NCBI GenBank assembly: GCA_022482625.1
Contig: JAKVOU010000001.1
Span: 124,001 to 188,000, forward strand
Direction: 5' to 3'
DNA: 64,000 nucleotides
Origin: Spirochaetia bacterium
GTDB lineage: Bacteria > Spirochaetota > Spirochaetia > Sphaerochaetales > Sphaerochaetaceae
Positions 1 to 19,012 of the stretch are shown piece after piece. The notes under the pieces are model-generated. The model made no database searches, had not been told where the DNA came from, and saw only the letters and a list, made by a program, of their open reading frames with translations. The translations under genes and the position numbers were made by a program. Numbering within the stretch: the stretch's first letter is position 1; every line of letters begins with the position of its first letter.

Positions 1-861
1 GATGGCATTGTTGTACAGATCTTCAGGCTCCGCAGAGGTGAAGTTCGTAATGAAGATGGCATCTGGGTTCCATGCGTAGACCTGCTCCATGGTAATTACC
101 GCATTGGAATTACCCAGCTGTACGCCTTCTGCGATATTCTTGGCGCCGACTGCATTTGCCCACCATTGTCCGAAGAAGTGCTTGCCGGAGGTAATCATCT
201 TCTTGTCGTTGTAGAGGAAGAGGAACAGTACTTGTTTCTTCTGGGTGTCGGTCAAGCCTGCTGTACGTTTCTCGATCATTGCCTTCGTATCCTTGCTGTA
301 TTTGTCTACCTTCTCTGCGACATTCCCATGGTCGGGGTACAGCTTTCCCAGTATGTCAGTCCACTGTCTATAGGTTTCCAGTACGTCATAATCCCATTTT
401 ATGGCAGAGACGCCCACAGCCTTGAAACCAGCCTGTCTGAGCTTTTCTCCCTGGGACTTTGACTCTGCATTGTACAGTACCACATCTGGATTGAGTTTCA
501 TCAGCTCTTCAACGTTGAGATCTGCACCCTGCATGAAGCCTGTGGAAATGTTCAGGAAATCAGGATAAAGCTGTCCCAAGAGACCATTCTTTGCAGCACT
601 CATGCTGGTCGGATGTATGCCGACGATCGTCTTGCTGCTGTTGAGGAATACGGTCATGACGGATGGAAGCGGATAGATATCAGTAATGGCTACCCGTTGA
701 GGATTGAGCTTGACTGTGGTGACATCACCGTTGTTGTCTGTAATATCTACCATTTGCTGTGTAGCAGCTGCAGGGGCCTCCTGCTGTGCTTGCCCGAAAA
801 GCGGTGTCATTAGGATTGCTGCTGTCAGCAGCAAGGTAATTGACTGTTTCTTCATGTTCAT
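1..861 (-). CDS. Iron-chelate/cobalamin-type ABC substrate-binding protein, 3'-truncated by window edge
   Basis: Translated by hand from the reverse strand. The protein opens with a signal peptide (MNMKKQSITLLLTAAILM, then a cleavage-like FGQAQQ) and continues as a periplasmic-binding-protein fold. Typical FecB/BtuF-class landmarks are visible: NPQRVAI near residue 55, NVEELMKLNPDVVLYN in the middle and WNPDAIFITNF near the edge. An AGGAG lies 9 nt before the ATG at 861; a second ATG at 855 is less well spaced. It is the last gene of the minus-strand operon with the FecCD permease and ABC ATPase, so it probably delivers a metal chelate or corrinoid-like ligand to that importer. The ligand cannot be read from the sequence. 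The C-terminus lies beyond the window. Confidence 0.88.
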   Translation of the reverse strand, partial: MNMKKQSITLLLTAAILMTPLFGQAQQEAPAAATQQMVDITDNNGDVTTVKLNPQRVAITDIYPLPSVMTVFLNSSKTIVGIHPTSMSAAKNGLLGQLYPDFLNISTGFMQGADLNVEELMKLNPDVVLYNAESKSQGEKLRQAGFKAVGVSAIKWDYDVLETYRQWTDILGKLYPDHGNVAEKVDKYSKDTKAMIEKRTAGLTDTQKKQVLFLFLYNDKKMITSGKHFFGQWWANAVGAKNIAEGVQLGNSNAVITMEQVYAWNPDAIFITNFTSAEPEDLYNNAI

Positions 862-873
862 CTTTTTTCTCTC

Positions 874-2046
874 CTATGTGTCCAACTGATTTGCCAATAG
901 CCATGCATTGCCTTTCCCATCGGACAAAGACGGTACCTCATCGGTATACATCCTGCCTGAAAAAGCAAAGTGCGGGACTCTGACAAATCGTGTATGTGCA
1001 TTTGTGATGTACTTGAATGTCGGATCTCCGATGACAAGTTCCATATGTTCAAGTTCCCTCTGAAGTTCCTCTTCTCCCTCACCCAAGTAATCCTGTTTTG
1101 ACAGTACGTTGCCTTCATCCTCCAGGAGAGTACCTACCTTTGCCGGATAAGGAAGCAATGCCGCAAGGGCAAGGCTTTGTACCGGTTCTCCCAAGACGAT
1201 GGCTGTTGCCGTGCCCGGTTTTCTTTTTTCTGTGAGACGTTCTTTCCATATGGCACGTAGTTGCCGGTCATCTTCCCCGGACATTGCACGTTTGAGCAAC
1301 GAGACGAGTGCGTCTGCACCTTTCTTGCCGAAGGGAAGGGCTATGATGTAGGGAGTACCAAAGCGTTCTTTGAAATATTTTGCCACCTTGAGCCCGACGG
1401 AAGATATGACAAGATTACAGGCTGCGCTTCCTGCCTGTGCCATTTCCTCAGGACGGCTGCCCATGGCCCAGACGGACAGTACTTTCATGCCTCTTGCCTC
1501 AAGGCTTCTTTGTATGTCCGATACGATATCCTGACGGGCAAAATCAAGCGGAGTGGCTCCAAGGATATTGATCGTGCCCGGAAGTTTGTCTGCTGTATCA
1601 ACGACAAAGCGTTTTGCCCATTCAAGCAAAGCAACCGATGCTCCCTGGATGTAGCTTTGCATGCCATCGGTTGCAATACCGAAGGTAGGGATGCCCGTTT
1701 TATGTTCTATTATACCTGCCAAGGCCTTGATATCCTGTCCCATCATCATGGGAATGGGAGAAGGCGCAAGGGCGATGAAACGGGGATGTTGTTCCTTTGC
1801 CGTAGTGACACAGTCATCGATGAGCTTGCTTTCATTGCCAAGTATGGCGTCATATTCCATCAGGCCTGAAAGGTAGATCCTTGATGGCATAGTGTACCAT
1901 CTGGGTTCATCATGGGTATTATAGGTACTGTTGCATCCTGAAGGATCATGTATGACGCTCATGCCGTCCAGCTCATAAAGGGCGGAACAGACTCCCGAGG
2001 TATCGCTTGTGTAGACCGGAAGTATCATCATTGCATCTTTGTTCAT
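874..2046 (-). CDS. Nitrogenase component 1-like protein (NifD/NifK-like, second subunit)
   Basis: The protein has 390 residues and belongs to the nitrogenase component-1/oxidoreductase family, at the short end for that family. A Cys near residue 38 in DPSGCNSTYNTHDEPRW matches the HGPxGC position that ligates the P-cluster. The usual later Cys in the STC..IGDD region is replaced by LAPSPIPMMMGQD, so only part of the cluster-ligand set is kept. The start at 2046 is chosen because its ATGA overlaps the stop of the upstream subunit; an in-frame start 5 codons earlier exists. It presumably pairs with the 437-residue subunit to form a heterotetramer reduced by the NifH-like protein. Not a bona fide NifD: the FeMo-co ligands are not recognisable and nifB/E/N are absent. 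Group IV (Nfl-like) membership is inference. Confidence 0.85.
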   Translation of the reverse strand: MNKDAMMILPVYTSDTSGVCSALYELDGMSVIHDPSGCNSTYNTHDEPRWYTMPSRIYLSGLMEYDAILGNESKLIDDCVTTAKEQHPRFIALAPSPIPMMMGQDIKALAGIIEHKTGIPTFGIATDGMQSYIQGASVALLEWAKRFVVDTADKLPGTINILGATPLDFARQDIVSDIQRSLEARGMKVLSVWAMGSRPEEMAQAGSAACNLVISSVGLKVAKYFKERFGTPYIIALPFGKKGADALVSLLKRAMSGEDDRQLRAIWKERLTEKRKPGTATAIVLGEPVQSLALAALLPYPAKVGTLLEDEGNVLSKQDYLGEGEEELQRELEHMELVIGDPTFKYITNAHTRFVRVPHFAFSGRMYTDEVPSLSDGKGNAWLLANQLDT

Positions 2047-3356
2047 TTGCTGCACCCCCATCCCTTGATCTGGATTATCTTGCTGGGATCCCGAGCTGTG
2101 GCGTATGCATCCTCTATGAGATCAAGCAATTTGCTTACACCGGAAAGCCCAAGCAGTCCGCTGTTTTCGATGAGGTTCACGAAGTGGTCCGTTCCCTCGT
2201 AATATGCCGCCTTTTGTCCGATTGCCAGGACATGCTCCTGTTTCTGGTGCAGAAACCTTGCTGCTGGATGGCTGGGACAAGCCAGTACAAGGGAAGGGTA
2301 GTGTTCCTTCAGATAATCAAAACTTTCCTTGTCTTCCCTTGCTACGGCTTCAACGTAGATTATCTTGACCTTGATGCCGTGTTGGAGTAGTAGCCTGGCA
2401 AGGGACAACGGTGCCGAAGTCGCCGTGTAATCGATGGCTACTTTCCAGTCTTGCAATGTCTTGGCAATTTTTGCCAACTGGTTTTCGATTTTGTCATGGA
2501 TTTCCTTTGTGTTGAAATTTGCCACACCGAGCAATGAAGCAGCTTCTGTGTCGGCTTTTTCCAGTTTGTCCAGGTCATAGGTGACAGGGTAGTATTTAAG
2601 TTCGCCTCCGATTCTTTCAACCAGAGCTTCTGCTCCCTTTGCAGCTGAGGGAATGGTATAGAAAAATGTCTTGCTTTTTCCTAATTCCTCATATTCCTTC
2701 CAGGTCTTTGTGAGGCAGATGTCGCGGTAGGGTCTTCCTGACTTGGCAATCATCTGTAACAGTTCATTGTCAGGATCGAGCGGGTAGTTGTTTCCTAAAA
2801 GTGTGATGCCGTTGTCCCGTCTGTCATTGATATCTATCAAGGAGTAGAGCTGACGTCGCATCGTCTCATCGGGGGTAATGCCACTTTTTTGGGTGATGGG
2901 GGTCATGTAGCAGTCTGTGAAGCGGATATTCGGATAACGCTTTCTTAATTGTCCATAGCAATATTCCAGGTCACAGCCGGTAAAGTAGTGGATGCAGGTA
3001 GAAAACATCTGGATGGCCTTCGGCTTTGGTTCCAGCCTATCGATGATGTCACTGGCTCCGTCTATTATCTGTTGTTCCATCGTACCGTCAATGACATTGT
3101 GTTCTTTGATGGTGATGCAGGAGAATTGCTTTTCCTTGCCAGCTTCATAGGCAGTCAGGACGACTCCGCGCATACAGCCTTCGCCTCCGACGAAGATTTC
3201 GTGGCTTTCCGGCATAAGAAATCCTTGATGGACAATGTTCCATGGACCTCTGGCTGGTGGTGCGAACTGTAGCCCTGCATAGAAAAGGTTGTTTTTGTTT
3301 GCCTGTGCTATGGGAAGGGAGAACGTCGAGTAATCTATCTTGTGTAGGTCGATCAT
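2043..3356 (-). CDS. Nitrogenase component 1-like protein (first subunit)
   Basis: The product has 437 residues and the nitrogenase component-1 fold. Candidate Fe-S ligands are the Cys in GGEGCMRGV (about residue 61) and two in [12 protein letters not shown] (about residues 120-128), spaced like the P-cluster or 4Fe-4S ligands of NifD/BchN-type proteins. A C-terminal GWGCSK adds another Cys. The ATG overlaps the end of the NifH-like gene, and its TGA overlaps the next subunit's ATG, so the three genes are translationally coupled. By family knowledge this would be the catalytic partner of the NifH-like reductase. The substrate is unknown; dark-operative protochlorophyllide reductase, CfbCD and methylthioalkane reductase are the characterised relatives of such non-nitrogen-fixing complexes. 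Confidence 0.87.
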
Positions 3357-4126
3357 GATGGCTCCTTGGTGTGCTTTGACAATTTCAGTATGTTTTCTGC
3401 CAAGGCAATATACTGCTGGGCCATGGAGCTTTCAGGATATAATTCAAGGACTGTCTTCGATTGTTCATCAGCTTCTTGGACTTCCTTGCTGAAATCCAGT
3501 TTTCCCGCAAGCGGGGCCTCAATATCATCGCAGAACTGCTTGATTTTTCCTTCTTCGTTATCGACATTCCTTTTGTTCAGGATGACGCCTGCAACCGTTG
3601 CATAGCCTCTGTCCTTGAAACTGTCCACAGCCAAGGCAATGTTCATGGCTGCGTGCAATGCCATTTTCTCTCCACTGGTAAGGATGTAGACGTTTTCAGC
3701 ATAGCCGTCCCGTATCGGCATGGAAAAGCCGCCGCATACCACGTCTCCCAGTACATCGTAGATGACGATGTCAATGCCGTAGGTCTGATATACGTGTTTC
3801 TTTTCCAGTTCTTGGAGGGCTGCGACGATGCCTCGTCCTGCACAGCCTTGTCCCGGTGGTGGACCACCTGCTTCACTGAGATAGACACCTTCGGTTCCCT
3901 TGATGACCATATCCTCCAAGGTTATGCCGGTTGGTCCCTTTTTCCTCAAGGATTCGAGGACTGTAGGGCAATCTTTTCCATTCCTGAGCAAGAGGGTCGA
4001 ATCTGCTTTTGGATCGCAGCCTACCTGAAGGACCTTGTAGCCTTTTTTAGCAAAAGCCAACGATAGGTTTGATGCCGTGGTGCTCTTGCCGATGCCACCT
4101 TTTCCGTATATTGCCAATCTGATCAT
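3353..4126 (-). CDS. NifH-like ATP-dependent iron-sulfur reductase
   Basis: A 257-residue NifH/BchL/CfbC-family protein. Residues 8-16 (GKGGIGKST) are the Walker A loop and CDPKADST is the conserved switch segment. The two inter-subunit 4Fe-4S ligands are visible as [12 protein letters not shown] (about residue 95) and [15 protein letters not shown] (about residue 131). In the family this homodimer hydrolyses ATP to pass single low-potential electrons to the component-1 partner, here the two subunits encoded immediately downstream. Its ATG overlaps the stop of the HydE-like gene (ATGA). All key residues look intact, so the complex is likely functional, but no nif biosynthesis genes are present and nitrogen fixation is unlikely. 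Confidence 0.93.
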
Positions 4127-5187
4127 ATCTGAGCTTCCTCCTTGTAATCTCCGCGTTCAGTTACACCATAGTAGGCGATGTCACGGAGCATGTCGTTTAT
4201 TTCGTTGATACCGATGCTGTGTGTTGTTCTCAGTTCGGCCATGTCATTGTACAGTTTATAATTTGCCCTTTGCCGTGCCGGAGTAATATTCGGCATGATG
4301 ACGTTGCAGCCTGCCAGTACTGCTTCTTTCCTGCCATATTTCCTGACGGTATCCATTGCCGTAGTAGCCGGAAGCAGCACGGTGGGACGCATCAGCCTGA
4401 GGATGGAAAGCAAGACCAAAGTAAGATCGAAACTCCCTTGTGGTTCGTTCCTGAACGGTGTCTGGCTGTGAGGAATGAACGGACCGATGCCGATCATATG
4501 CGGACGGAACTTTTCAAGATACCTCAGGTCTGTTACCAAGTTGTCAACGGTCTGATAAGGGGCTCCTACCATCATGCCGGCCCCGACTTGGTAGCCGATC
4601 TGCTTGAGATCTTCCAAGCAAGCAAGACGATGCTGCAGTGTCTGCACCTTGGGATGCATCTTTGCATAATGGATCGGATCTGCTGATTCATGACGGAGCA
4701 AGAATCTGTCTGCACCTGCATCGAACCATTTCTGGTAGAGGTCATGTTCCCTTTCTCCTACGCTGAGCGTGATTGCGCAGTCTGGAAATTCTTTCCGTAT
4801 TGCCCGTATGATTTCTTCGAACAGTGAGGCATCATAGGTCAGGTCTTCCCCTCCTTGGAGTACGAAAGTCCGCATGCCTATGGTATAGCCTACTTTGCAG
4901 CAGGAAAGTATCTCTTCTTTGTTCATCCTGTATCGTACGACCTCTTTGTTGCTTCGTCGCAATCCACAGTACAGGCAGTCATTGCGGCACCAGTTCGTGA
5001 ACTCGATGATTCCCCGAAGATATATTTTCTTGCCATAGACCCTGTCACAGACGGTCCTTGCTCTCTGTGCCAGGAGAAGCCTGTCTTCTGTGGTGAAGGT
5101 AGACAGCAACTGCCTGAAACCTTCATCAGAAAGTATTTTCTTAGATTCCAGTTCTGCAATGAGATCCTTGTTGGTTTGCTTTTCCAT
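4123..5187 (-). CDS. HydE-like radical SAM enzyme
   Basis: 354 residues of a radical SAM TIM-barrel protein of the HydE/PylB/BioB group. The 4Fe-4S motif is CRNDCLYCG (CX3CX2C, about residues 67-74), within the [11 protein letters not shown] context typical of Hyd[18 protein letters not shown] and [12 protein letters not shown] are further HydE-like blocks. Known HydE acts on an organometallic iron intermediate during assembly of the [FeFe]-hydrogenase diiron site; no hydF, hydG or hydrogenase is seen here. The gene follows the ABC ATPase after 3 nt and overlaps the NifH-like gene, so it belongs to the same operon. It could be a HydE paralogue building or modifying an iron cofactor for the nitrogenase-like complex, or processing the imported ligand. 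The family call is firm; the role is inferred. Confidence 0.88.
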
Positions 5188-5190
5188 ATC

Positions 5191-6297
5191 TTATTCCTTG
5201 ACCTTTGAGTAGGTCGTCTTGATACTCAGCTGTTTCAGCTTGCCAAGTTCTTGGCTCAAAGCCATGATCTTGGCTTTCGGTGCTTCAACTGTCAGATTGA
5301 TCAACTGCAGGTTGTTCCGGCTTCGCATGCCCATCCTGCCTGTGATTATGGAAGCATGCCTGTGCAGGATGGTGTTGATCTCAGGGGTTATGGTCGGATC
5401 TTCGATGATAAGTGAAAGGATGGCAAGTGTGCTGGCAAGCTCACAGGTGTCGTTTTCCTTTTCATGTTCCTTCCAGCTGATTTTCTTTTCGAACAATTCC
5501 CTTTTTTCCTGGTTGAGCACTTCCAGGGGCAATACGTCGGGATAGCATTTGTCGTCTGTTTCAATTTCCCCGATGATGGCCTTGACGCCGAAGGCTCTGG
5601 CAATTGAAGCTTCGGTGATCACCTCATATGTAGGACCGAAGGTTGCCTTGCCTCCTTTTTCAAGCAGAAGGGATTTGTTTGCCCGTTGCAGGGCGTGGTC
5701 GGGATAGTGGGTGTTGAAGATGACCCCCATACCGGAGGCTGCAAGGCGGGAAAGGGTATCGAGTACGATGATCTGATTTCTGAAATCGAGATTTGATTCG
5801 GGCTCATCCAAGATTAGTACCTTCGGATTTGATACCAGGGCCCGTGCAATGAGTACCATCTGTACTTCGCCGCCAGACAGCTGGTTGACTTTCCTGTCTC
5901 TGAGTTCAAGGATGCCAAGTTGTTCCATGGCTTCTTGTGCCGCGATGAGATCTTCCTTTTTGGGGAGGGCAAGGAAAGAGAGACTGCTTGCCCTTCCGAG
6001 GAGGACCTGTTCCAGGCAGGTAAGGGATGAAAGTCTGTTCTTTGCCTGTGGCACATACGAGATGATGCTCCATAGTTCCTGGCTGCCATAATGTCTGAGA
6101 TCCTTGCCGAAAAGGGAACTTGAACCTTTCTTCCATGGTAGAAATCCCATCATGCAGCGCAGGAGTGTCGTTTTTCCTGCGCCATTCGGACCTAGGATAG
6201 CCAGCAGGTCGCCTTCATCGGTAGAGAAAGAGATGTCATGCAAGACAGACCGTGCTTCATTGTATCCGAAGAAACCTTCCTTGACATCGAAGATCAT
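5191..6297 (-). CDS. FecE-type ABC transporter ATPase fused to a C-terminal TM1266-like domain
   Basis: 369 residues from the ATG at 6297, chosen because AGGAGG lies 9 nt upstream and its ATGA overlaps the permease stop. Residues 1-250 form a complete FecE/BtuD-like ATPase: Walker A GPNGAGKTT, signature LSGGEVQ, Walker B VLILDEPESNLD and an H-loop in FNTHYPDHA. After a charged linker, about residues 288-369 form a small ACT-like domain (LSLIIEDPTITPEINTIL, ITGRMGM, SQELGKLKQLSIKT). This domain resembles the TM1266 iron-only hydrogenase system regulator family, normally a free-standing protein of 80-90 residues. The fusion suggests ligand or metal sensing coupled directly to transport. It energises the FecCD permease encoded just upstream. 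Confidence 0.9.
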   Translation of the reverse strand: MIFDVKEGFFGYNEARSVLHDISFSTDEGDLLAILGPNGAGKTTLLRCMMGFLPWKKGSSSLFGKDLRHYGSQELWSIISYVPQAKNRLSSLTCLEQVLLGRASSLSFLALPKKEDLIAAQEAMEQLGILELRDRKVNQLSGGEVQMVLIARALVSNPKVLILDEPESNLDFRNQIIVLDTLSRLAASGMGVIFNTHYPDHALQRANKSLLLEKGGKATFGPTYEVITEASIARAFGVKAIIGEIETDDKCYPDVLPLEVLNQEKRELFEKKISWKEHEKENDTCELASTLAILSLIIEDPTITPEINTILHRHASIITGRMGMRSRNNLQLINLTVEAPKAKIMALSQELGKLKQLSIKTTYSKVKE

Positions 6298-7292
6298 AGG
6301 CTCCATCCTCCTTTTCTTCTGAGCAGCAGGATGAAGAAAGGTGCTCCTACGATGGCTGTAAGGACTGAAATCGGTATTTCGCTTGCAGTAGCACTTCTTG
6401 CCAATGTATCGATGATAAGCATGAAGGTTGCTCCGATTGATATGGAAGCGGGTACCAGCTTGCTGTTGTCACTGCCGAAGAGCATGCGGCAGGCGTGCGG
6501 GACCAGCAAGCCTACCCAGCCGACCTGTCCGCACATGCTTACGGCCGAGGCCGTGATCATCGTAGCACTGATAACGGTGGTAGCTCTCAGCAGTCCTACG
6601 TTTGTACCGGTGCTTTTTGCTTCGTCGACAGAAAGTGTAAGTATGTTAAGTCTCCATCTGAGCAGATAGAGCAGGACTAATCCGACTACTATGAAGGGAG
6701 CTCCCAATAACAGACTGTGATAGTTTGCACTGGAAAGTGAACCCATGAGCCAATAAGAAATGCTTGGCAGCTGTGTTTCTGCATCGGCCGTATACTTTAC
6801 CAATGTGATGAAGGCGTTGAAGAGAGCTCCGATGATGATACCTGCAAGTATGACTGTGGCCGGTTCCATCTGGTGATTGCTGTTGCCGGTGAGAAAGGTC
6901 AGCATGACGGCTACAAGGCCAAATACAAGAGCCAGTATCTGTACACCTATGAGGGAAAAGCCAAGGGAAAGTGCCAGTACGGCACCGAAGGAAGCACCGG
7001 ATGCTACACCGACGGTATCAGGGGTGGCAAGCGGGTTGGTGAACAGGCTTTGGAATGCCGCTCCTGAAACTGAAAGGCCGGCTCCTACGAGCATTGCAAG
7101 CAGAATTCTGGGAATACGTATATTCCTGATGACTATTTCCATCTGCTGGTTTGCTGCATGTCCTCCTGTAAGTACAGAAATGATATCGGAGAACGGAATG
7201 GGAAAACGTCCTATGGAAATGGACAACAGAGCTGTTGCAAGGGGAACCACAACCAATAACACTATGGCGGGTAGTTTCAGCCTGTCGTGCAC
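6294..7292 (-). CDS. FecCD/BtuC-family ABC transporter permease
   Basis: About 332 residues with many hydrophobic helices. Family blocks visible include RIPRILLAMLVGAGLSVSGA, FQSLFTNPLATPDTVGVASG, GWVGLLVPHACRMLFG and the C-terminal GAPFFILLLRRKGG. The start is placed at a GTG (7292) preceded by AAGGAGG with a 5-nt gap. A longer frame reaches an ATG at 7364, but its extra 24 residues are hydrophilic and lie inside the leader. It forms the membrane channel for a ferric chelate, haem or corrinoid. It is the first gene of the seven-gene operon, and its stop overlaps the start of the ATPase. Confidence 0.92.
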   Translation of the reverse strand: MHDRLKLPAIVLLVVVPLATALLSISIGRFPIPFSDIISVLTGGHAANQQMEIVIRNIRIPRILLAMLVGAGLSVSGAAFQSLFTNPLATPDTVGVASGASFGAVLALSLGFSLIGVQILALVFGLVAVMLTFLTGNSNHQMEPATVILAGIIIGALFNAFITLVKYTADAETQLPSISYWLMGSLSSANYHSLLLGAPFIVVGLVLLYLLRWRLNILTLSVDEAKSTGTNVGLLRATTVISATMITASAVSMCGQVGWVGLLVPHACRMLFGSDNSKLVPASISIGATFMLIIDTLARSATASEIPISVLTAIVGAPFFILLLRRKGGWSL

Positions 7293-9430: not shown

Positions 9431-9494
9431 ATTGTACGGAATAAAAAACAAGTATATCCTAACAAAAATAACATATCTTATCAAGGAGATTATA

Positions 9495-10766
9495 ATGGGA
9501 AGTTCAACTACTGAGAATTTTTTTACTAATGCAAAACCAAGATGGTCATATATTAAGGATGATTTGCTAAGATGCTATTTACGTGGATACACGAATAAGA
9601 TTTTAAAAACAAGAAAACCAATTATATACATTGATGGTTTTGCTGGCAGTGGTTTGTTTGAGGGAAAGTCTGTTGCTCCTCAAATTGCCATCACAGATGG
9701 GAAAATTCCCTCTTGCTGGGGTTCTCCACTGATTGCACTCAAAACACTTGAACTTGCGGCTAAGGAATCAAAAACAGAAAATCCTCGATTTTATCCTATA
9801 TTCATTGAAAAAAAATATTATGATCAGTTAAAGAATAACGTAAATAATTCTCAATTTTCTGATATGGATTTGTCGATTGTCCATGGAGATTTTAAAGACG
9901 TTATCTCTGATATTATCGAAAAATTAGCAGAGAGTAGTAAGAGGTATAATTTATTTTGCTATATTGATCCATTTGGTATTCGTGATTTAAAAATGACACT
10001 TTTGAAGAAACTGAAAAAAGCAAATTTTTTTACTATGGAGTTGTTGATTAATTTTAATTCTTTTGGTTTCTTTAGATCTGCTTGTGCTTTGTATAAAGTT
10101 AATGTACGTGAGCTAGAAATTGTGCGTGAAAATGAGGGCCTTGATAATAGTAGTATAGAATATCATTCGGCATCTAAACAATTTTTTGATGAAATAATGC
10201 AATGTAATGATTGGTATAATATTATCTTGGATTATAAAAACAATATTATTGATGGTTATCAAGCTGAACAAAAAATTGCTGAATTGTATAAAATGCAACT
10301 TATGACTGAAATGCCAATGAATTATGTTTTAGATATTCCCATTAGATTTGATGAATCAAAGCATCCAAAATATCGCATGATTTATGCAACTATGAGTGAA
10401 GATGGTGTTCTCCTGATGGCGGATGTAATGAGAAAAAGGGAAGAAATTCTTTTCAAATGCAATGCAAATGGTGATATACAACTAACGCTTTTTGAACAAA
10501 AAGATGTGTACGATCCAAAGCCTGCTTTTGATGCGTTCATGGCAATTCTTGGCAACAGAAAAGAAAAAGAGTTGAAAGATCTGTTTGTTGATTTTTATAC
10601 TCAATTTGGTTTGATTCCTTGGACACGGTGTGAATTTGTGAAAATGTTAGAAAAAGCCGATAAAATTGTCATACGCCGAATTCCTCCTGTTAAAAAGAAT
10701 GGAATGCCAACGGCGTTTTATACAGAAGGTCCTTCGAGGGAAATTTATATAAAGAAAAAAGGCTAG
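9495..10766 (+). CDS. tcmP: Three-Cys-motif partner protein TcmP-like
   Basis: 423 residues from the ATG at 9495 (AAGGAG, 6-nt gap); a longer frame from 9432 lacks a ribosome site. The N-terminal half has TNAKPRWSYIKDDLL and IYIDGFAGSGLFEG, a methyltransferase-like motif I (FAGSG), then CYIDPFGIRDL, which occupies the place of a DPPY-like catalytic loop. This matches the TcmP family, named for its constant neighbour carrying a three-Cys radical-SAM-like motif; that neighbour is encoded 63 bp downstream. The gene is much more AT-rich than the flanking chromosome and lies between a broken toxin-antitoxin pair and an insertion sequence, which suggests horizontal transfer. The biochemical role of TcmP is not established to my knowledge; nucleic-acid modification or defence is inference. 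Confidence 0.82.
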   Translation: MGSSTTENFFTNAKPRWSYIKDDLLRCYLRGYTNKILKTRKPIIYIDGFAGSGLFEGKSVAPQIAITDGKIPSCWGSPLIALKTLELAAKESKTENPRFYPIFIEKKYYDQLKNNVNNSQFSDMDLSIVHGDFKDVISDIIEKLAESSKRYNLFCYIDPFGIRDLKMTLLKKLKKANFFTMELLINFNSFGFFRSACALYKVNVRELEIVRENEGLDNSSIEYHSASKQFFDEIMQCNDWYNIILDYKNNIIDGYQAEQKIAELYKMQLMTEMPMNYVLDIPIRFDESKHPKYRMIYATMSEDGVLLMADVMRKREEILFKCNANGDIQLTLFEQKDVYDPKPAFDAFMAILGNRKEKELKDLFVDFYTQFGLIPWTRCEFVKMLEKADKIVIRRIPPVKKNGMPTAFYTEGPSREIYIKKKG

Positions 10767-10829
10767 GGGCATAGTGATTGTTTTTCCTTATTCATGTGTG
10801 TTATTTTAGCAAAAGGGAAGGAGACTATT

Positions 10830-11603
10830 ATGGATGCAGATAAGCTGTTATTTGGAACCAAAGAATGGGCTCCTAATAATTTTAATTTTATGAATGGTTG
10901 CTCTAATGATTGTACGTATTGTTATGCAAAGAGTATGGCTATCAGATTTAAACGGAAAACTGCCGATACATGGAAAGAGGAAGAGCCTGTTAACATGAAG
11001 GGTAAATCATATAGCCACAAAAATGGGTCGATTATGGTACCTTCTTCGCATGATATTACGCCGGGAAATATTGATATTGCATTGTCTGTTCTGAAAAAAC
11101 TTATTGAAAATGACAATGAATTGCTTTTAGTAACAAAACCCCATTTTGAATGTGTGCAGAAAATTGTAGATACCTTTCAAAAAAGAAAAAAACAGATTTA
11201 TTTCAGGTTTACTATTGGATCAGCAGATTCATCAGTCCTTAAATTGTGGGAACCTTCTGCTCCTGATTTTGATGAAAGGCTACAATCGCTCATCTACGCT
11301 TTTGAAAATGGGTATTCTACGAGTGTTTCCTGTGAACCTTTGCTAGATGATCATTTTGATATACTGTTCAATGCTGTAGTTCAATATACTACAGATGCGA
11401 TTTGGGTTGGAAAAATGAATATGGCAAAAAATCGAGTAAGAATGAATACCAATGGAACTTTTCCTGTTAATAAAATCGATGAGCTTATTAAAAGCCAATC
11501 AGATGAGAAGATACTTGCCCTCTTCAATTCATATAAAAATGAACCAAAGATAAAATGGAAGGAAAGCATAAAAAAAGTTGCTATTTTGTATGGCTTGTTA
11601 TAA
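10830..11603 (+). CDS. Three-Cys-motif (radical SAM-like) protein, TcmP partner
   Basis: 257 residues from the ATG at 10830 (AAGGAG, 6-nt gap). Near the N-terminus, NGCSNDCTYCYA is a CX3CX2C motif like that of radical SAM enzymes, similar to the DUF5131/phage Gp37-Gp68 family. Later blocks are SSHDITPGNI, LLLVTKPHFECVQ and VSCEPLLDD. The protein is shorter than most radical SAM enzymes, but the order of segments fits a minimal barrel like that of spore photoproduct lyase-type or archaeosine-related proteins. It forms a two-gene unit with tcmP and shares its AT-rich composition. Which substrate the pair acts on is unknown. Confidence 0.8.
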   Translation: MDADKLLFGTKEWAPNNFNFMNGCSNDCTYCYAKSMAIRFKRKTADTWKEEEPVNMKGKSYSHKNGSIMVPSSHDITPGNIDIALSVLKKLIENDNELLLVTKPHFECVQKIVDTFQKRKKQIYFRFTIGSADSSVLKLWEPSAPDFDERLQSLIYAFENGYSTSVSCEPLLDDHFDILFNAVVQYTTDAIWVGKMNMAKNRVRMNTNGTFPVNKIDELIKSQSDEKILALFNSYKNEPKIKWKESIKKVAILYGLL

Positions 11604-12010
11604 CAACATAATATGAATTTGTATTTTATGTTATGAAAGATTGACTATATGATTATTCTTAAAGTCAATAAATCCAACTTGGAAGTTTTTTCTTTTGTTT
11701 TTATGCATAAGAGAATTTTCCTGTACTGGTTATAGTTGCCAGCAAAGACTAGATAATCACAATACTGCTATATTAAAAAATATGTAAAAACATTTTGAGA
11801 GAGTTAAAAAAAATTGTTTGTAAAATATAGTTTTAAACTATCAATGTTTTCTGAATTATTGAAATTCTAGAATAAAGAAGCCCTTGCTTGCTGCTAGGGG
11901 GAACTAACAGAGCAAGGGCAGAAACATAACATAAAAGGCAGTTTTCCCAAGAAATAATCGTATGACTATGACTGTAGGAACAATGGTTTCATGTTATATG
12001 TTTGAACTTA
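11604..12010. other. Intergenic AT-rich stretch of about 400 bp
   Basis: No open frame with a ribosome site is seen. The only clear structure is the hairpin at 11880-11919 that probably ends the minus-strand gene at 12011. The segment next to the radical-SAM-like gene shares that gene's AT-richness, so the right border of the transferred module probably lies here. Confidence 0.6.
11880..11919 (-). terminator. Hairpin terminator of the exported-protein gene
   Basis: GCCCTTGCT (11880-11888) pairs exactly with AGCAAGGGC (11911-11919). On the minus strand the stem is followed by TTCTTTATT, a weak U-rich tail. Confidence 0.6.
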
Positions 12011-12937
12011 TTACATGTTTCCATAAGGATACTGAGGCCCATAATAAGCCGGATAGGGGTGGGGACCTGGCATCGGACCCTGCTGGAAATTGCCTTGGGG
12101 GGCAGCTGGAGGATTACCTTGACAGTTAGGACAAGGACCAACTGGCCGTCCCATCATATTGCCTGTTCGATATTGCATGGGATTTCCTTGCTCTGATCCG
12201 TATCTTTCTTGTGGACTGAAACGCATTACTTCTCCCATCCTGGGTGGTGCTTGGAATGTTCTTGGTCCAGCTTGCTGTCCCATACTCATACAAGTCATCT
12301 CTTGTCTGAATTGGAAATTACTCTGTTGCATGTTTGGCATTGTCCTGCCTTGCTGCGGCAGTGCAACTCCTGCACTTCGCTGCTGGATGCGGACCGTAAT
12401 GTTACCACGCATACCTGCAGTTCTGTTTACTTGGTTTGCACTTGGTCCTTGTGCAGTAGCGCCTGTGCTTTGCTGTTGATCTTGAGCTTTATTGGTGTCA
12501 GGGGCATTGAAGGGCCCTGTTGTACCATTGGCTTGCATAGATTTGCTGTTTCCCTGTTGCTGGAATTGCATATTGTTTGGCGCACCAAAACTATTGTTGC
12601 CATGGTTTTCAATCCCAGGTCCAGGTTGAGGTCCTCTGGGCATAGCTTGCTGACCCATAGCAGGCATCTGTTGTCCATGCATATTCGGTACCTTCTTGGG
12701 AATTTGTACGATCAGCAACTCTTTTCCAAGAGTACCGCTGGTCCGTATATACAATATAGACAGTATGTAATTGCTGTTAGGTACTGTATTCCCTTTGGGA
12801 GCAGTGAGTTGGTTGGAAGCAGTTGCGTTTTCTGGATTTGCTGTTTCCTGTTCTGGAGCTTGAGCAAATGCCATGCTGCAGCTAAGCAACACTAGCAACG
12901 ACAGTACTGAAAACTTGTGTTTTCTAAAGTTTATCAT
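12011..12937 (-). CDS. Exported low-complexity protein rich in Gln, Pro, Gly, Met and Asn
   Basis: 308 residues. The N-terminus is a clear signal peptide (FSVLSLLVLLSCSMAFAQ); a short ordered segment follows (YILSILYIRTSGTLGKELLI, about residues 58-78). The rest is low complexity, full of Gln, Pro, Met, Gly and Asn (MPAMGQQAMPRGPQPGPG, PHPYPAYYGPQYPYGNM). A CPNCQ pair near residue 273 could bind metal or form a disulfide, and Met-rich spans recall periplasmic copper-binding proteins, but this is inference only. No homologue is recognised. AGGAAAAAG precedes the ATG. It is flanked by the TcmP module and an insertion sequence, with no operon partner. Confidence 0.7.
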   Translation of the reverse strand: MINFRKHKFSVLSLLVLLSCSMAFAQAPEQETANPENATASNQLTAPKGNTVPNSNYILSILYIRTSGTLGKELLIVQIPKKVPNMHGQQMPAMGQQAMPRGPQPGPGIENHGNNSFGAPNNMQFQQQGNSKSMQANGTTGPFNAPDTNKAQDQQQSTGATAQGPSANQVNRTAGMRGNITVRIQQRSAGVALPQQGRTMPNMQQSNFQFRQEMTCMSMGQQAGPRTFQAPPRMGEVMRFSPQERYGSEQGNPMQYRTGNMMGRPVGPCPNCQGNPPAAPQGNFQQGPMPGPHPYPAYYGPQYPYGNM

Positions 12938-13307
12938 TTCTTTTTCCTTTCTCTTGGGTTCCTTAGCTCCATTTCATGTAGCCTTGTCGGAGTTGCATGA
13001 AATGATCTGTCTTGCCGGTTCATTTTGTTTGGTGTGGAACTAACTTGATGTACAGATTTTCATTAGTAGTTTCTATCACCTCACATCTAGTTTAGTTTTA
13101 TGACAATATTGTAGACAAATTATGTGTAGATTAAGTACAACTTTCCCAATCAATAGGACTATACAATAACACTTGAAATCATCCATTTTTCATACAGAAC
13201 CCCTCTTTCCTGTAATTTATGGAGAGGGTTACAGTCGATTTGTCGTGTCTCTCGCGGCTTTGCTTGCGGAATGTTGGAAATTTCTCATGTCAGCATACGG
13301 TTTCTTC

Positions 13308-13336
13308 TTGCATATATAGTCTAATTATTGTATAAT
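13308..13336 (+). promoter_or_regulatory. Transposase promoter overlapped by a dyad
   Basis: TTGCAT (13308-13313) and a perfect TATAAT (13331-13336) are 17 nt apart. A near-palindrome of TATAGTCT and AGACTATA half-sites brackets the -10 box (about 13315-13345), a position that could damp expression. Confidence 0.6.
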
Positions 13337-13363
13337 TAAGACTATACACAAGGAGGGACTGCC

Positions 13364-14860
13364 ATGCCGATCCCAAAGGAAGTACTAGCGGTCGAGCGAC
13401 CCAAGAATTCAATCGTCATCGTGTACGGCAAGGACCGCGACCGTTACGCGGTAAGGGCCAGGGTCGGATGCAGAAGTGTCGGAAGCCGAAGACTTCCGGT
13501 CAACGGTCCGACCATCGGCCATATAGTGGACGGCAAGTACATACCCCTCGGGGAGGATGCCCCGCCGCCCGTGTCCGGGGCGGCAGTGGACCTCAAGGAC
13601 TGGGCAAACATCATCCTTGCGCAGAAGCTCTTTGCTGACATGCTCATTGAGCTAGGAGAATCCTATGGCAGGGAGGATGCGCTCAGGATCTGGTCCATCG
13701 CTGTACTCAGGGTCTGCTTCAGCGGCATCAAGGATCATGAGCTGAAAGATGCGTATGAGGAGAGTTTCCTGTCCGAGCTGTATCCTGATGTAGCCCTCTC
13801 GAAGAACACGGTCTCCACCTTCCTGAACAATCTTGGACGTACCTGTTCAAAGATCACCCTGTTCATGAGGGCCAGGGCTTCGAAAGTCGAGATGGATCAC
13901 CATGTACTGATTGACGGGACATTGAAATCGGATGAATCGAAGGTAAATTCTCTCTCGGATTTTTCCAGGAAAGCCAGGACGAAAGGAACCAGGGACATCT
14001 CTGTCCTGTTCGCTTTCGATCTTGAAGCGATGGAACCGGTATGCTCCAAGTGTTTTCCGGGCAACATGCTTGATGTCACCGCCTACGATGAATTCATCTC
14101 CGAGCACCAACTGACAAAGGGAATCGTAGTTGCAGACAAAGGATTCCCCCAGTCCGTAGCAAGGCAGCATTTCAAGCAGCATCCCGACCTCCATTACCTG
14201 AATCCTCTGAAGAGGAATGCGAAGATTGCATCGCAACTCCATATGCTTGAGTTTACAGAGCTTCTTCAAGGGTATGAAGGCATAACCTGCAGGAAGGAGA
14301 AAGGTGGGGACCGATGGCTCTATTCCTTCCGGGATGCCTACAGGGCTTCAAAGGAAGAACGTGACTGGCTGAGCCGAAGCCGGAAAAAGAAGAATTACCG
14401 CCTCACTGATCTTGAGAAGGCAAGAGCGACATTCGGGACGGTGGTCCTTGAGTGCGATCTGGACACAGATCCCCAGACGATCTACAAAGCCTATTCCAAG
14501 AGATGGGAGATCGAGATTGTCATGAGATTCTACAAGTCAGCACTCGAATTCGATGAGACCCGTGTGCATGACGACTACAGCGTGATAGGAAGCGAGTTCT
14601 GCGACTTCCTCGCTTCCGTGCTCACCTTCAGGATGATAGCTGCCTTTGACGAGGCCAAGTTACTCGAAGATTTGCCGTATAAGAAGATCATGAGGATCCT
14701 GGCAAGGGCGAAGATGTTCAATGATCCTGGTATCGGGTGGCGTCTGATCAAGATCAATCCGTCACAGGAGGAAGTCCTGAAGAGACTCGACATTCATCCC
14801 ACAGAGAAGCTTCAACCGAAGAAGAAACGCGGTCGTCCTCCTAAAGTGAAGCCCGTATAG
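13364..14860 (+). CDS. DDE transposase, IS1634/IS4 family
   Basis: 498 residues, full length for the family, with AAGGAGG before the ATG. Catalytic acids are visible as HVLIDGTLK (first Asp), GIVVADKGFP (second Asp) and the C-terminal YSKRWEIEIVMRFYK, which fits the Y-(2)-R-(3)-E-(6)-K signature of IS4-type transposases. A basic tail (KKKRGRPPK) ends the protein. It excises and inserts the surrounding element by acting on the 15-bp inverted repeats. No frameshift or stop is seen. Confidence 0.94.
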   Translation: MPIPKEVLAVERPKNSIVIVYGKDRDRYAVRARVGCRSVGSRRLPVNGPTIGHIVDGKYIPLGEDAPPPVSGAAVDLKDWANIILAQKLFADMLIELGESYGREDALRIWSIAVLRVCFSGIKDHELKDAYEESFLSELYPDVALSKNTVSTFLNNLGRTCSKITLFMRARASKVEMDHHVLIDGTLKSDESKVNSLSDFSRKARTKGTRDISVLFAFDLEAMEPVCSKCFPGNMLDVTAYDEFISEHQLTKGIVVADKGFPQSVARQHFKQHPDLHYLNPLKRNAKIASQLHMLEFTELLQGYEGITCRKEKGGDRWLYSFRDAYRASKEERDWLSRSRKKKNYRLTDLEKARATFGTVVLECDLDTDPQTIYKAYSKRWEIEIVMRFYKSALEFDETRVHDDYSVIGSEFCDFLASVLTFRMIAAFDEAKLLEDLPYKKIMRILARAKMFNDPGIGWRLIKINPSQEEVLKRLDIHPTEKLQPKKKRGRPPKVKPV

Positions 14861-15146
14861 TCTCACTCATTGGGAAAGTTGTAATTAAGGAAAAAGTTGT
14901 AAAATGGAAGTAAGGTTGAAATAAGAGACAATCAGATACGTAGCAACAGTGAATTTTTGAAAAGTTACGAGTAAGTTGCGGCATGGGGAGCCAGATAGGA
15001 GAAAAGAACAGCTGGTGCTAGTAAAAATGATTTTGGCAATCTGGATTATTTTTTATTTTGACAGCAGCACTTTTTGTATTTCAGCTATGGAACTGCTATA
15101 AAGCCAATCAGGCAGTACGAAGGTGATGCAGATAGCAAAAACAGTC

Positions 15147-15527
15147 CTACTTACAGATTTCAAATCGATTTTTATAAAAAATCTTCAACTTCTGAAATGA
15201 ATTATTGCTTATAACGTGTGCAATTTGATACGCATCTTTTTGTGCAATATCAGAATCAACGCCAATTTGGACGAGCATAGCTGATAGTATAAGATGCTTT
15301 TCATGGGTCTGCCTCGCGATTCGTTCTCCTGCAGGAGTCAAATGGAGAAATTTATTCTGGTCCATGGTAAGAAAGCCTCCTTTCCGAAGAGAGGAAATTG
15401 CAAGACTGACACTGGCCTTGGAGCGCTCCATACACTGTGCAAGGTCAATGGAACGTACTTTGTGCTTTTGTTTCAGAAGTAAGAATATCGCCTCAAGATA
15501 ATCATCATTTGTTGCTTGTGTCTTCAT
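15147..15527 (-). CDS. DtxR/MntR-like metal-dependent repressor
   Basis: 126 residues from the ATG at 15527 (GAGG, 6-nt gap); a start four codons earlier falls on the ribosome site. TNDDYLEAIFLLL, VRSIDLAQCMERSKASVSLA and LRKGGFLTMDQNKFLHLT form the winged helix of DtxR/MntR regulators. GERIARQTHEKHLIL and an Asp/His-bearing segment fit the dimerisation and metal-binding part. It is slightly shorter than MntR (about 140 residues), and the usual C-terminal metal ligands are reduced. It follows the ABC transporter by 14 nt and is the last gene of the uptake operon, so it probably represses that operon when iron or manganese is plentiful. Confidence 0.8.
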   Translation of the reverse strand: MKTQATNDDYLEAIFLLLKQKHKVRSIDLAQCMERSKASVSLAISSLRKGGFLTMDQNKFLHLTPAGERIARQTHEKHLILSAMLVQIGVDSDIAQKDAYQIAHVISNNSFQKLKIFYKNRFEICK

Positions 15528-15541
15528 TAAATACCTCATTG

Positions 15542-17254
15542 TTAAAAATCAGAAAGGTGTTGTTCTGCATGCCACATGGCTGTATATTTTCCGTTCTTTG
15601 CAAGCAGCTCCTCATGAGTTCCTGCTTCTGTAACCTTGCCGTTGCATATTACTAAGATTTGATCTGCATGTTTCACTATGGATAAGGTATGAGCAATCAT
15701 TACGACTGTTTTCTTTCTTTTCATTAAGTTGGCAATAGCTTGCTTTACTGCCAGCTCATTTTCAATGTCCAGGGAAGCCGTAGCCTCATCCAAAAGTAAA
15801 ATAGGACTATCTTTCAAGATAGCACGGGCAATAGACAAACGTTGTCGCTCGCCGCCTGAGAGGAAGTTGCCATTTTCTCCAGTCAAGGTTTCATACCCCT
15901 GTGTCATTTTTTGGATGAAGTCATTGCAATTGGAATCTTTACATGAGGCTTCAATTTCTTCGTCTGTTGCATCAGGACGAGCATGTTTGATGTTATTTCG
16001 GATTGTATCATTGAATAGAAACACATCTTGGTCAACCATGGAAATTTGTTCCAGTACCTGTTCTGCGGCTATATCGTCAATAGGTTTTCCTCCGATTGAA
16101 ATTGTTCCTGAGTCAGCTTCATAATATTTGGCAATGAGGTTAAGAATTGTCGATTTGCCAGAACCTGAATCTCCTACGATAGCGGTTAACTTACCGTCAG
16201 GCAGTACGAAAGACAGGTCCTGCAACACGGGTTCTCCTTCTAGATAGGAGAAATCAACATTTTGAAAAACAATCTCATGGGTATCGGTTCTAAAAGGTTC
16301 CATGCTGCCTTTTTCTTCTGCTTCATCGAAGATATTCGTAATTTTTTTCTTAGAAATTGCCAGGTTTTTGTAGCTTGTCAAATCGACAAAGATTGTAATG
16401 TTCAATTTGGCGAGGAATAAAGGCAACATAGTGAGCAGCAGGTATGAAACCATATCCAATGAACCACTTATTACCGGGTTGGCTGCGATCACCATGATAA
16501 CAGGGATACTGCACCAAGCGAGGATGCTGTTGACCGCACCGATAGGGATAACTTTGGCTTCGTACCGGTAACTTATATCACTGAAGTCTTTCATTGTCTT
16601 TGTTACTGTTTTGTTCTTTGTTCCTCCGATGCCATATGCCCGGAATGTCTGCATGCCTGTTACATATTCTACGATATTACTGACGTTCTTTGCACAGATC
16701 TGGTTCTTTGCATTTCCATATTTTTTGACAGCACGGAAAGAAAACCAGAATACCGGGACAAGAATTAAATCTGTAATCAGAAAAATAATCCCTGCCGGTA
16801 ACCAGATTACTGATGAAAAGATGATGAGCATGATTGAAAGAGAGATATTCTTGACCAGGTCCGCTGTCTTATGGGTAAGTATTTTTTCATAGTTGCTCAC
16901 ATCGCTGGTGATGGTATTGATGTATTGTCCTGTCTGGTTTTGAGTAAATCGGGCAAGAGGAATCTTCTTGATTTTATTTCCCAGATACATCCGGATCTGT
17001 TTACTTACTGCCGCCCCACCGATTTGCACTTGGGTATACCCAAAACTATAGATGCACAAGCGAAATAGAAACACACCTACTAAGATTCCTGCAAAGGTAA
17101 AAAGTAAATGAATGTGCATAGTACCTAGGAACAACATTTTCATGACTGCATATAAAATCAAGAAATTACACCCTGATAGCAATCCTTCCAAAATTGTAAG
17201 TGCCACGCCAATATAAAAATGTTTGTTTTTGTGCAAAACTTTATACTTCTTCAT
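15542..17254 (-). CDS. ABC half transporter (membrane domain plus ATPase), second of a pair
   Basis: 570 residues with a type-1 exporter-fold membrane domain (about residues 1-300) followed by an ATPase: Walker [14 protein letters not shown], signature LSGGERQRLSI, Walker B ILLLDEATASLD and an H-loop in VMIAHTLS. Its ATG overlaps the end of the other half transporter gene. Such IrtA/IrtB- or YbtP/YbtQ-like pairs import ferric siderophores despite their exporter fold. The setting with an ECF module resembles the transport genes of the equibactin locus of Streptococcus equi. No siderophore synthetase is in the window, so xenosiderophore uptake is the likeliest inference. Confidence 0.88.
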   Translation of the reverse strand: MKKYKVLHKNKHFYIGVALTILEGLLSGCNFLILYAVMKMLFLGTMHIHLLFTFAGILVGVFLFRLCIYSFGYTQVQIGGAAVSKQIRMYLGNKIKKIPLARFTQNQTGQYINTITSDVSNYEKILTHKTADLVKNISLSIMLIIFSSVIWLPAGIIFLITDLILVPVFWFSFRAVKKYGNAKNQICAKNVSNIVEYVTGMQTFRAYGIGGTKNKTVTKTMKDFSDISYRYEAKVIPIGAVNSILAWCSIPVIMVIAANPVISGSLDMVSYLLLTMLPLFLAKLNITIFVDLTSYKNLAISKKKITNIFDEAEEKGSMEPFRTDTHEIVFQNVDFSYLEGEPVLQDLSFVLPDGKLTAIVGDSGSGKSTILNLIAKYYEADSGTISIGGKPIDDIAAEQVLEQISMVDQDVFLFNDTIRNNIKHARPDATDEEIEASCKDSNCNDFIQKMTQGYETLTGENGNFLSGGERQRLSIARAILKDSPILLLDEATASLDIENELAVKQAIANLMKRKKTVVMIAHTLSIVKHADQILVICNGKVTEAGTHEELLAKNGKYTAMWHAEQHLSDF

Positions 17255-19012
17255 TGAAGCTTTCTCCCTTCAGTTGATAAGACATTGAGCGTGCCTTTTC
17301 GTAATCCATCCATGCCCGTTGATAGTATGCGTTTCTTTTCAAGACTTCCTTATGTGTGCCGACTTGGGTAATCGTATGGTTTTCCACGACGGCAACTTTG
17401 TCACACATTTTGATCGTTCCTAGTCTGTGGGCAACAATAATGACTGTCTTTCCCTTGCAGAGGTTTTCGATGGCTTTGTCGATTTCCATTTGATTTTCCG
17501 GGTCAGCCGCGGAAGTTGCCTCATCAAGAATCAGTATCGGTGCATCCTTGAGGATTGCGCGTGCGAGGGCAATTCTTTGTTTTCTCTCCACCGGAAAAGC
17601 GAGAACCAAAACTCCCGACCTTTGTGTCATAGCCATCCGGCAAAGGACATGATAAACTTGTCAATCTGTGCTTTCTGAGCAGCACATCTCACTTCTTCCA
17701 AACTGCTGTTGCTTCCCATTCGGATGTTTTCCAATACACTGTCACTTGTCAGAAAAGTTTTTTGGAATACTATGGCAATATGCTTAAGCAATGAGTCATA
17801 GGCAATACTTTTGACGTTTTTTCCCCCGATAAGGATTGTTCCTTCCCTGACATCATAAAATCGGGCAATCAACTCAATGATGGTACTTTTCCCAGCCCCT
17901 GAACGGCCTACCAAAGCTATTTTTTCACCTAAGGCAATCTGCAGGTTGCAGTGTTGTACTACGTCTGTTTTCCCATCATAGGAAAAGCTGATGTCGTTCA
18001 ATTCGATGCTGGAATCGGTTGGAAAGTTCCCCTTGCTATCATAAGTGGGAATATCGAGGATTTCTTGGGCCTTTGTCACTCCTGTGAGAACTTTGGCAAA
18101 ATTACTTCCGAGTTGTTGAAGCGGACGGATTTCCGTCAGGTATAATGAACCGACGTAAGCGAATAGCAGGAAAATACTGGCACTGATGGAACCTTTTAGG
18201 AAGAACATCCCGCCTATCGGGACCATAAGCAAGATACCGCATTCAATGATGACGATAAATATTGCATACGGGGGGCCCATTTTCCTTGATGTTTCGTTCC
18301 ATACCGTATTCTCTTCGTTGATAGCCATTGAAAAATTCCGAAAAGACTGGCTTCCCATATTATAAGCCTTTATCAGCTTCATGCCGCTGATGTATTCAAT
18401 CATGATGGAGTTGAGTGACATGATGGAGTGATTTATCCTCTCCATCATGTCGCTGGCATTATGAAATAGAATTCCCATTGTTGCGATTGCAGCAAGCATA
18501 GGTACCAAAGATATCAGAGCCAACGGCACATTGACTGTCAGAAGATAGACAAATACTGCAACTGGACCGATCATGTAGTAGATCAGCTCGGGTAAATTGT
18601 GAGCTAGAAAGAGTTCCAATTTTTCAATGTCTTCATTCAGGACTGTTTTGATATTGCCGGTACTCCGTTCATCCAAAGCTCCCAAGGGAACTTTTGCCAT
18701 ATGGTCGATTACCATACAGCGCACTTTGAACAATGCTCTGTAAGCTCCCTTGTGGGAGGCTATGCCTGCACATCCGAACAGGATGAAACGTACAAGTATC
18801 GCAACCGTAATCATACTGGCATTCTTGAGGATGATCTGCTCTGTCATCTGCTTTGCAAAGCCTGCTTTCATCAAGCAATAGATGCCATAGTACGGAACCA
18901 TCATGCATAAACCGCTGATAGCAGCCAACAAGACAGACAGAAACAAATACCATTTATCTTTTCCTGCCCACTGTAGCAGCAGGGTAACTGAATTTGTTTT
19001 TTTTGGCTTCAT
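17241..19012 (-). pseudogene. ABC half transporter, first of the pair, with two frameshifts in the ATPase domain
   Basis: Starts at the ATG at 19012, which overlaps the EcfA stop (ATGA). The membrane domain and Walker A (LVGRSGAGKSTII) are intact. The frame then breaks near 17636-17645, after KFIMSF. A second frame supplies DGYDTKVGSFGSRFSGGEK, and a third frame from about 17590 supplies KQRIALARAILK, PILILDEATSA and the C-terminus. One extra base in a G pair and one extra A in an AAAA run would account for both shifts. As written the gene gives an inactive 461-residue product lacking the signature and Walker B. Because the downstream partner is intact, a sequencing error is a real alternative to decay. 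Confidence 0.8.

Follow-up and report, generated by a model that had tools for sequence, protein, structure and literature searches.

A likely H-cluster maturation operon with HydE, nitrogenase-like proteins and an ABC importer in a spirochaete genome without HydG

The window analyzed here (64,000 nucleotides of a Spirochaetia bacterium, C1:124001-188000 of genome G000, the genome being of 3.47 Mb and 98.6% complete) contains an operon of seven genes, all on the minus strand. These encode, in order, a FecCD permease, an ATP-binding cassette (ABC) ATPase, the radical S-adenosylmethionine (SAM) enzyme HydE, a NifH-like reductase (NH), two subunits similar to nitrogenase component 1 (NDa and NDb; with NH, the trio), and a Peripla_BP_2 binding protein. 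The operon is likely a module for maturation of the [FeFe]-hydrogenase H-cluster in an organism that has no HydG. The cofactor concerned is most likely the ordinary H-cluster, the unusual point being the missing HydG, and the gene cluster is probably part of an undescribed alternative route of H-cluster assembly.

Linkage of these genes, their co-occurrence and the mutual exclusivity of their modules are observed in related loci. With an NDb alignment as query, 84,980 species genomes were scanned and 509 relatives confirmed, of which the best 80 were kept for the gene-order analysis; many relatives are metagenome-assembled genomes (MAGs). Among the 80 loci, gut Clostridia and acetogens predominate (C. 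ljungdahlii, C. carboxidivorans, Coprococcus comes, Blautia, Ruminococcus, Intestinibacter), alongside some Coriobacteria and Lentisphaeria. Their constant core is the trio NH-NDa-NDb, found near hydE in 33, near hydF in 22 and near TM1266 in 31 of the 80 loci. As the linkage to hydE (at most 10 kb) recurs in Bacillota and other phyla, the layout of the window operon is not due to chance. The core is accompanied by one of two modules. In type A (the Hyp type, 47/80) this is a second trio, NH2-ND2a-ND2b, together with HypF-HypC-HypD-HypE, and in type B (the importer type, to which the window belongs, 23/80) it is the FecCD permease, the ATPase and the binding protein. No locus has both modules (0/80), and 10 loci are too short to be typed.

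HydG, HydA and HypD were surveyed in the genomes of 50 of the 80 loci, picked for length and quality. HydG is missing in 43 of them, while HydA is present in 49, the exception being a 1.2-Mb MAG. Of the 34 type A genomes surveyed, 33 have HypD of the type encoded in the clusters (63-73% identity to the query), against none of the 16 of type B (Fisher p=3e-12). In three of the latter the only HypD is of the ordinary kind, along with HypB and the [NiFe] large subunit. Among 238 Spirochaetia genomes, which form an independent sample, the trio is present in 8 of 15 with HydE and no HydG, compared to 2 of 65 with both (p=8e-6, which is optimistic, since kin species were counted singly).

The spacing of the seven genes, from -19 to +12 bp (overlaps of 4-19 bp, gaps of 3-12 bp), is typical of a single transcription unit. 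The binding-protein gene extends 285 bp past the left edge of the window, the full open reading frame being L004:11716-12861 (381 aa). An earlier note, made from the window sequence alone, had listed these genes as overlapping or nearly touching, which agrees with their place, strand and spacing (Table 1). It had missed both the truncation of the binding-protein gene and the TM1266-like domain of the ATPase, and its "HydE-like" enzyme is a true HydE. The note had also seen the importer, the low-potential nitrogenase-like reductase and HydE as one conserved functional unit, probably related to an iron cofactor, and the recurrence of this association bears it out, as do the counts for the co-occurrence it suggested looking for (the trio beside hydE, and the FecCD module).

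Table 1. Genes of the operon in window coordinates, with supporting matches
Feature	Position	Strand	Evidence
Importer permease of the FecCD type, opening the operon	6294..7292	-	PF01032, 291 bits; start codon GTG, preceded by AGGAGG
ATPase of the ABC importer, with a TM1266-like domain fused at its C terminus	5191..6306	-	PF00005, 115 bits, residues 22-169; PF21699, 55 bits, residues 294-364
HydE, sole copy in the genome	4123..5187	-	TIGR03956, 484 bits (cut-off 254.6)
NH, NifH-like ATP-dependent reductase	3353..4126	-	PF00142, 288 bits
NDa, nitrogenase component-1-like subunit a	2043..3356	-	PF00148, 35 bits
NDb, nitrogenase component-1-like subunit b	874..2061	-	PF00148, 114 bits
Peripla_BP_2 binding protein, cut by the window edge	1..861	-	PF01497, 52.5 bits

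HydE and other hydrogenase genes of the genome

Judged by its sequence, the HydE of the operon is a true HydE. It matches TIGR03956 over its full length (model positions 1-340), carries the radical SAM motif CX3CX2C as CRNDCLYC, aligns with T. maritima HydE structures over residues 5-318 (276 bits), and is the only HydE match in the whole genome. In the HydE tree it falls among true HydE proteins, intermixed with those of HydG-bearing organisms, and no active-site position separates HydE of HydG-bearing genomes from HydE of the window type, the sole switch being at one T/S position. The mixed placement and the unchanged active site argue that this enzyme carries out the usual reaction on the usual substrate.

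The earlier note had expected a distinct HydE-like clade with another product, and such a clade is ruled out by the tree and the residue comparison, HydF and HydA also being present. Of the two observations that the note had named as contrary to its proposal, HydE indeed lies within true HydE with no second copy, but gene order is conserved in relatives, as the wide recurrence of the association shows.

As for the genes that the note proposed to look for elsewhere in the genome, hydF and hydA are found and hydG is not. HydF is full-length (C1:489479, 573 bits) and its gene adjoins the aspartase gene aspA; an aspartase by hydF is a known trait of hyd loci, and AspA can provide the nitrogen of the bridging (bridgehead) ligand (PMC11736057). 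HydA is of the bifurcating type with all three H-cluster motifs intact (TSCCPAW, MPCTAKKAE and EVMACRGGCIAGGG). The top HydG match in the genome (46 bits) is HydE itself, and there are no matches for HypD, HypB or the [NiFe] large subunit. A ThiH-like atypical HydG, an idea taken from PMC9431212, was considered as a stand-in and rejected, the corresponding matches of about 200 bits being missing from both the window genome and C. ljungdahlii.

No other genome among 27 sampled from the host's family has the trio, which suggests that the operon was acquired horizontally. It might then be a mere remnant, with HydA of this genome left unmatured; many relatives do have HydA with no HydE, HydF or HydG at all. 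However, the seven reading frames are all open and closely packed, and the HydA motifs are intact, so that we consider a remnant extremely unlikely.

HydA maturation in Spirochaetia poses a question of its own. HydA is present in 184 of the 238 genomes, and those examined retain the H-cluster motifs (e.g. L182 in G069, L170 in G147, L175 in G008). HydE or HydF occurs in only about 74-80 genomes, and roughly 100, including near-complete single-contig G147, G195 and G237, have HydA and show no HydE, HydF, HydG or trio.

Two further observations concern HydE. Most genomes of the Spirochaetia genus g20 (L074, L077, L082) hold a second, divergent protein of the HydE family, at about 310 bits, which is above the cut-off. 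In Eubacterium/Anaerobutyricum loci (L123, L125, L127, L134, L159) two proteins come after the cluster HydE, the first of about 600 aa and the second of 1,750-2,080 aa.

Nitrogenase-like trio and its two alternative modules

The PF00142 match of NH and the PF00148 matches of NDa and NDb exceed the cut-offs and place the trio in the nitrogenase superfamily. NH has the NifH fold with its two cluster cysteines, and the motifs GCAGRG and DVVCGGF are present in the sequence. The AlphaFold model of NDa (predicted local distance difference test score, pLDDT, 89.6) has NifEN as top Foldseek matches, and that of NDb (pLDDT 85.0) has NifEN and dark-operative protochlorophyllide oxidoreductase (DPOR). 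The trio misses the NCBIfam equivalog cut-offs of true nitrogenase (nifH 292.5 against 394, nifD 25 against 654), as well as those of DPOR, chlorophyllide reductase and CfbCD (CfbC 293.9 against 402, BchL 195 against 345, BchB 52 against 490); NH is also below the curated BchX cut-off, and no cut-off of BchL, BchB, BchN, CfbC or NifDKEN is reached.

Residues C61 and C121 of NDa are invariant in 47 relatives, and C25 and C43 of NDb in 49. The NDa pair aligns with C88 and C154 of NifD, and NDb C43 aligns with C95 of NifK. Since these three invariant cysteines align in this way, NDa-NDb likely holds a [4Fe-4S] cluster at the P-cluster position, while a FeMo-type cofactor is not indicated.

These data bear on the possibility that HydE has another substrate and, together with the nitrogenase-like enzyme, makes or alters a tetrapyrrole or an iron cofactor unrelated to hydrogenase. 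Tetrapyrrole reductases are found among nitrogenase relatives, and NH scores highest against the CfbC and NifH models, but no curated tetrapyrrole family is matched at its cut-off, the genome's single HydE is a true one with an unaltered active site and no clade of its own, HydF and HydA are present, and the trio is co-linked with hydF and TM1266. This makes another cofactor very improbable; for the processing of a tetrapyrrole or sulfur compound, proposed in the earlier note, no evidence was found.

The NH proteins of both types group in a single clade (Shimodaira-Hasegawa-like approximate likelihood ratio test, SH-aLRT, 97), which includes the Clostridial set-1 NifH-like proteins. The trees suggested in the earlier note give a supported clade for NH, below the NifH, CfbC, BchL and BchX cut-offs, but none for HydE. 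In the tree of concatenated NH-NDa-NDb both types again form one clade (support 100), and the two modules have been swapped around the same core at least three times. When this tree is rooted on the importer-trio genes of Treponema, the importer types lie near the root, and type B is the older arrangement. Such repeated swapping between modules that are unrelated to each other would be expected if they served to deliver the same thing.

In type A, the complete order is seen in L117 (TM1266-HydF-HydE-NH-NDa-NDb-NH2-ND2a-ND2b-HypF-HypC-HypD, then HypE), and the spirochaete G062, which lacks HydG, has TM1266-HydF-AspA-HydE-NH-NDa-NDb-NH2-ND2a-ND2b-HypF-HypD-HypE in one operon. C. ljungdahlii (L091) and C. 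carboxidivorans (L090) were recovered as Hyp-type clusters. In 17 of the 33 genomes with cluster-type HypD neither HypB nor the [NiFe] large subunit is matched, and therefore their HypFCDE serves no [NiFe]-hydrogenase detectable with the two E. coli query proteins, which distant groups may escape. The C-terminal PRIC cysteine of HypE is kept in 39 of 39 proteins and HypC starts with MC, so that cyanide synthesis by HypFCDE looks functional.

In type B, the module is a complete ABC importer of the FecCD/BtuC type (permease PF01032, ATPase PF00005, binding protein PF01497). In the window, the C-terminal domain of the ATPase falls under PF21699, whose family name is "iron-only hydrogenase system regulator", and this fusion to TM1266 makes the window the clearest sign that the importer has its place in the hydrogenase system. 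Binding-protein residues such as W167, Y217, W234, M258, Y311, R312 and W326 are conserved in 18 of 18 importer-type relatives, a pattern that gives no pointer to the ligand. Neither the window nor any of 11 importer loci has a riboswitch that would name the ligand, and the importer proteins match no curated transporter family at or above its cut-off.

Several observations weigh against assigning the operon to H-cluster maturation. In 47 of the 80 loci hydE is not within 10 kb of the trio, and HydG is present in 7 of the 50 surveyed genomes, so that the cluster does not strictly exclude HydG. In Treponema, relatives hold the importer and the trio with no HydE, HydF or HydG. Genus g20 has HydE, HydF and HydA and lacks HydG, but its trio is of another branch. 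Finally, seven Spirochaetia genomes with HydE and no HydG have no trio (G049, G081, G132, G038, G047, G051, G117), some of them being incomplete.

The Treponema loci also enter into the main competing explanation, namely that an iron chelate enters through the importer and is reduced by the nitrogenase-like enzyme, which feeds iron to H-cluster assembly, while some other, unlinked gene fills the role of HydG. The importer is indeed of the FecCD family, and the position of importer types near the root of the trio tree fits such a function. However, 47 of the 80 loci replace the importer with a second trio and hypFCDE, whose products make Fe-CN/CO units and import no iron, and the absence of HydG tracks the cluster. 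We regard iron-chelate uptake as rather unlikely, and maturation of the H-cluster in place of HydG as the better account of the loci.

The Treponema loci in question (L191, Treponema saccharophilum pTS1 12001-18297; L087; L088) combine the importer with a NifH-NifD-NifK-like trio and probably represent a related system with another role. A search of a plasmid collection gave only nif, bch and one such importer-trio relative from Treponema, and a megablast of the window against plasmids gave no match. A sampled genome of the host's class, G216, is identical to Treponema saccharophilum pTS1 over 68 of 68 60-mers, which settles that the host is a spirochaete. The trio of g20 (L072, L078, L080, L081) is related to set 2, has no HypD or importer nearby, and in three of the four loci sits between EF-G-like and SecA genes.

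In the window, near the operon, an AT-rich gene pair (9432-11603, G+C about 0.34) encodes a protein of 444 aa that matches no Pfam family, along with a radical SAM protein (PF04055). A transposase gene (13364-14860) adjoins the pair, which looks like a mobile island beside the operon.

Possible route of H-cluster assembly

The CO and cyanide ligands of [FeFe]-hydrogenases are held to come from HydG, an enzyme dedicated to this task. Known nitrogenase activities include the reduction of CO2 to CO and of cyanide to methane and ammonia. In the canonical pathway HydG makes Fe(cys)(CN)(CO)2, HydE reduces and dimerizes it, and HydF completes the bridging ligand (PMC12752695), while HypCDEF makes Fe(CN)2CO (PMC9431212).

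The chemistry of the route and the nature of the imported ligand we infer from gene content and order. NH would pass electrons, with ATP, to NDa-NDb through the [4Fe-4S] cluster at the P-cluster position, and NDa-NDb would reduce or rearrange an iron-cyanide/carbonyl precursor to the Fe(CN)(CO)2 synthon usually supplied by HydG, from which HydE and HydF might then build the [2Fe] subcluster as usual. In type A, HypFECD would supply cyanide (and Fe-CO) from carbamoyl phosphate, and one or both nitrogenase-like enzymes may act on the Hyp iron-cyanide unit, so that what HydE receives would be equivalent to the product of HydG. In type B, as in the window, the importer would bring in a precursor replacing the output of the second trio and HypFCDE. 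This is the weakest step of the proposal; since the importer stands in place of the type A module, uptake of a precursor is the simplest assumption.

HydG might also be simply dispensable, if HydE and HydF draw on cellular CO and cyanide (a proposal made in PMC9431212), the cluster then having another purpose. In vitro, HydE and HydF do give activation in the absence of HydG, but it is only about 1% (PMC9431212), and the joining of the trio, HypFCDE and hydE/hydF/TM1266 across phyla would be left unaccounted for. A dispensable HydG is highly unlikely in our view, and an alternative assembly route remains the preferred explanation.

In its strongest form, the proposal is that an enzyme of the nitrogenase family takes over from the radical SAM tyrosine cleavage by HydG in making the H-cluster's Fe(CO)2(CN) unit, and that some gut bacteria have given up making the precursor and import an extracellular iron-cyanide/carbonyl compound (or an equivalent), possibly from neighbors that have HypFCDE, which would amount to trade in an organometallic precursor. 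We offer this full form as a possible scheme of low probability. If the alternative assembly route as such is real, there is a second pathway in many H2-producing bacteria, both acetogens and those of the gut, combining Hyp cyanide synthesis, nitrogenase-type reduction and assembly by HydE/HydF; a nitrogenase-like clade known from sequence alone since 2012 acquires its first function; and the missing HydG of industrial acetogens is explained, while the genes become a new set of tools for the production of active hydrogenase. Moreover, the importer variant raises the question of precursor sharing between cells.

Comparison with known systems

Group IV nitrogenase-like proteins of an uncharacterized "red clade", from Coprococcus catus and Dorea longicatena, were described by Dos Santos in 2012 with no function assigned (PMC3464626). 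The trio, a candidate member of this clade, resembles them in the cysteine pattern (alpha C88, C154; beta C95), in the kinds of host and in the two linked NifHEN-like copies; neither the hyp/hyd linkage nor the missing HydG is mentioned in that paper. The absence of HydG in C. ljungdahlii and C. carboxidivorans, which have HydE and HydF, was published in 2022 as unexplained, along with the presence of HypCDEF and the lack of HypAB in C. ljungdahlii and its kin (PMC9431212), but it was not connected there with nitrogenase-like genes. In the literature searched, which excluded subscription papers and preprints, we found no paper joining HydG absence, Hyp and nitrogenase-like genes.

DPOR (BchLNB), CfbCD, methylthio-alkane reductase and the isethionate nitrogen fixation-like (NFL) enzyme share with the trio a NifH-like reductase and a two-subunit component 1. 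For the isethionate system, too, an importer and a radical SAM gene accompany the enzyme (PMC11423573), but the product of that gene has its closest similarity to BciD, unlike the HydE of the window operon. As in the [NiFe] HypCDEF pathway, which yields Fe(CN)2CO from carbamoyl phosphate, type A relatives have full HypF, HypC, HypD and HypE with the C-terminal Cys; their HypD, however, is of a separate type and joined to hydE/hydF and the trio, and the window genome has none of these Hyp proteins. Finally, the canonical HydE-HydF-HydG maturation is matched by the HydE, HydF and HydA of the window genome and by its AspA next to HydF, but HydG is absent, and the hyd clusters hold instead the nitrogenase-like trio with either the importer or HypFCDE.

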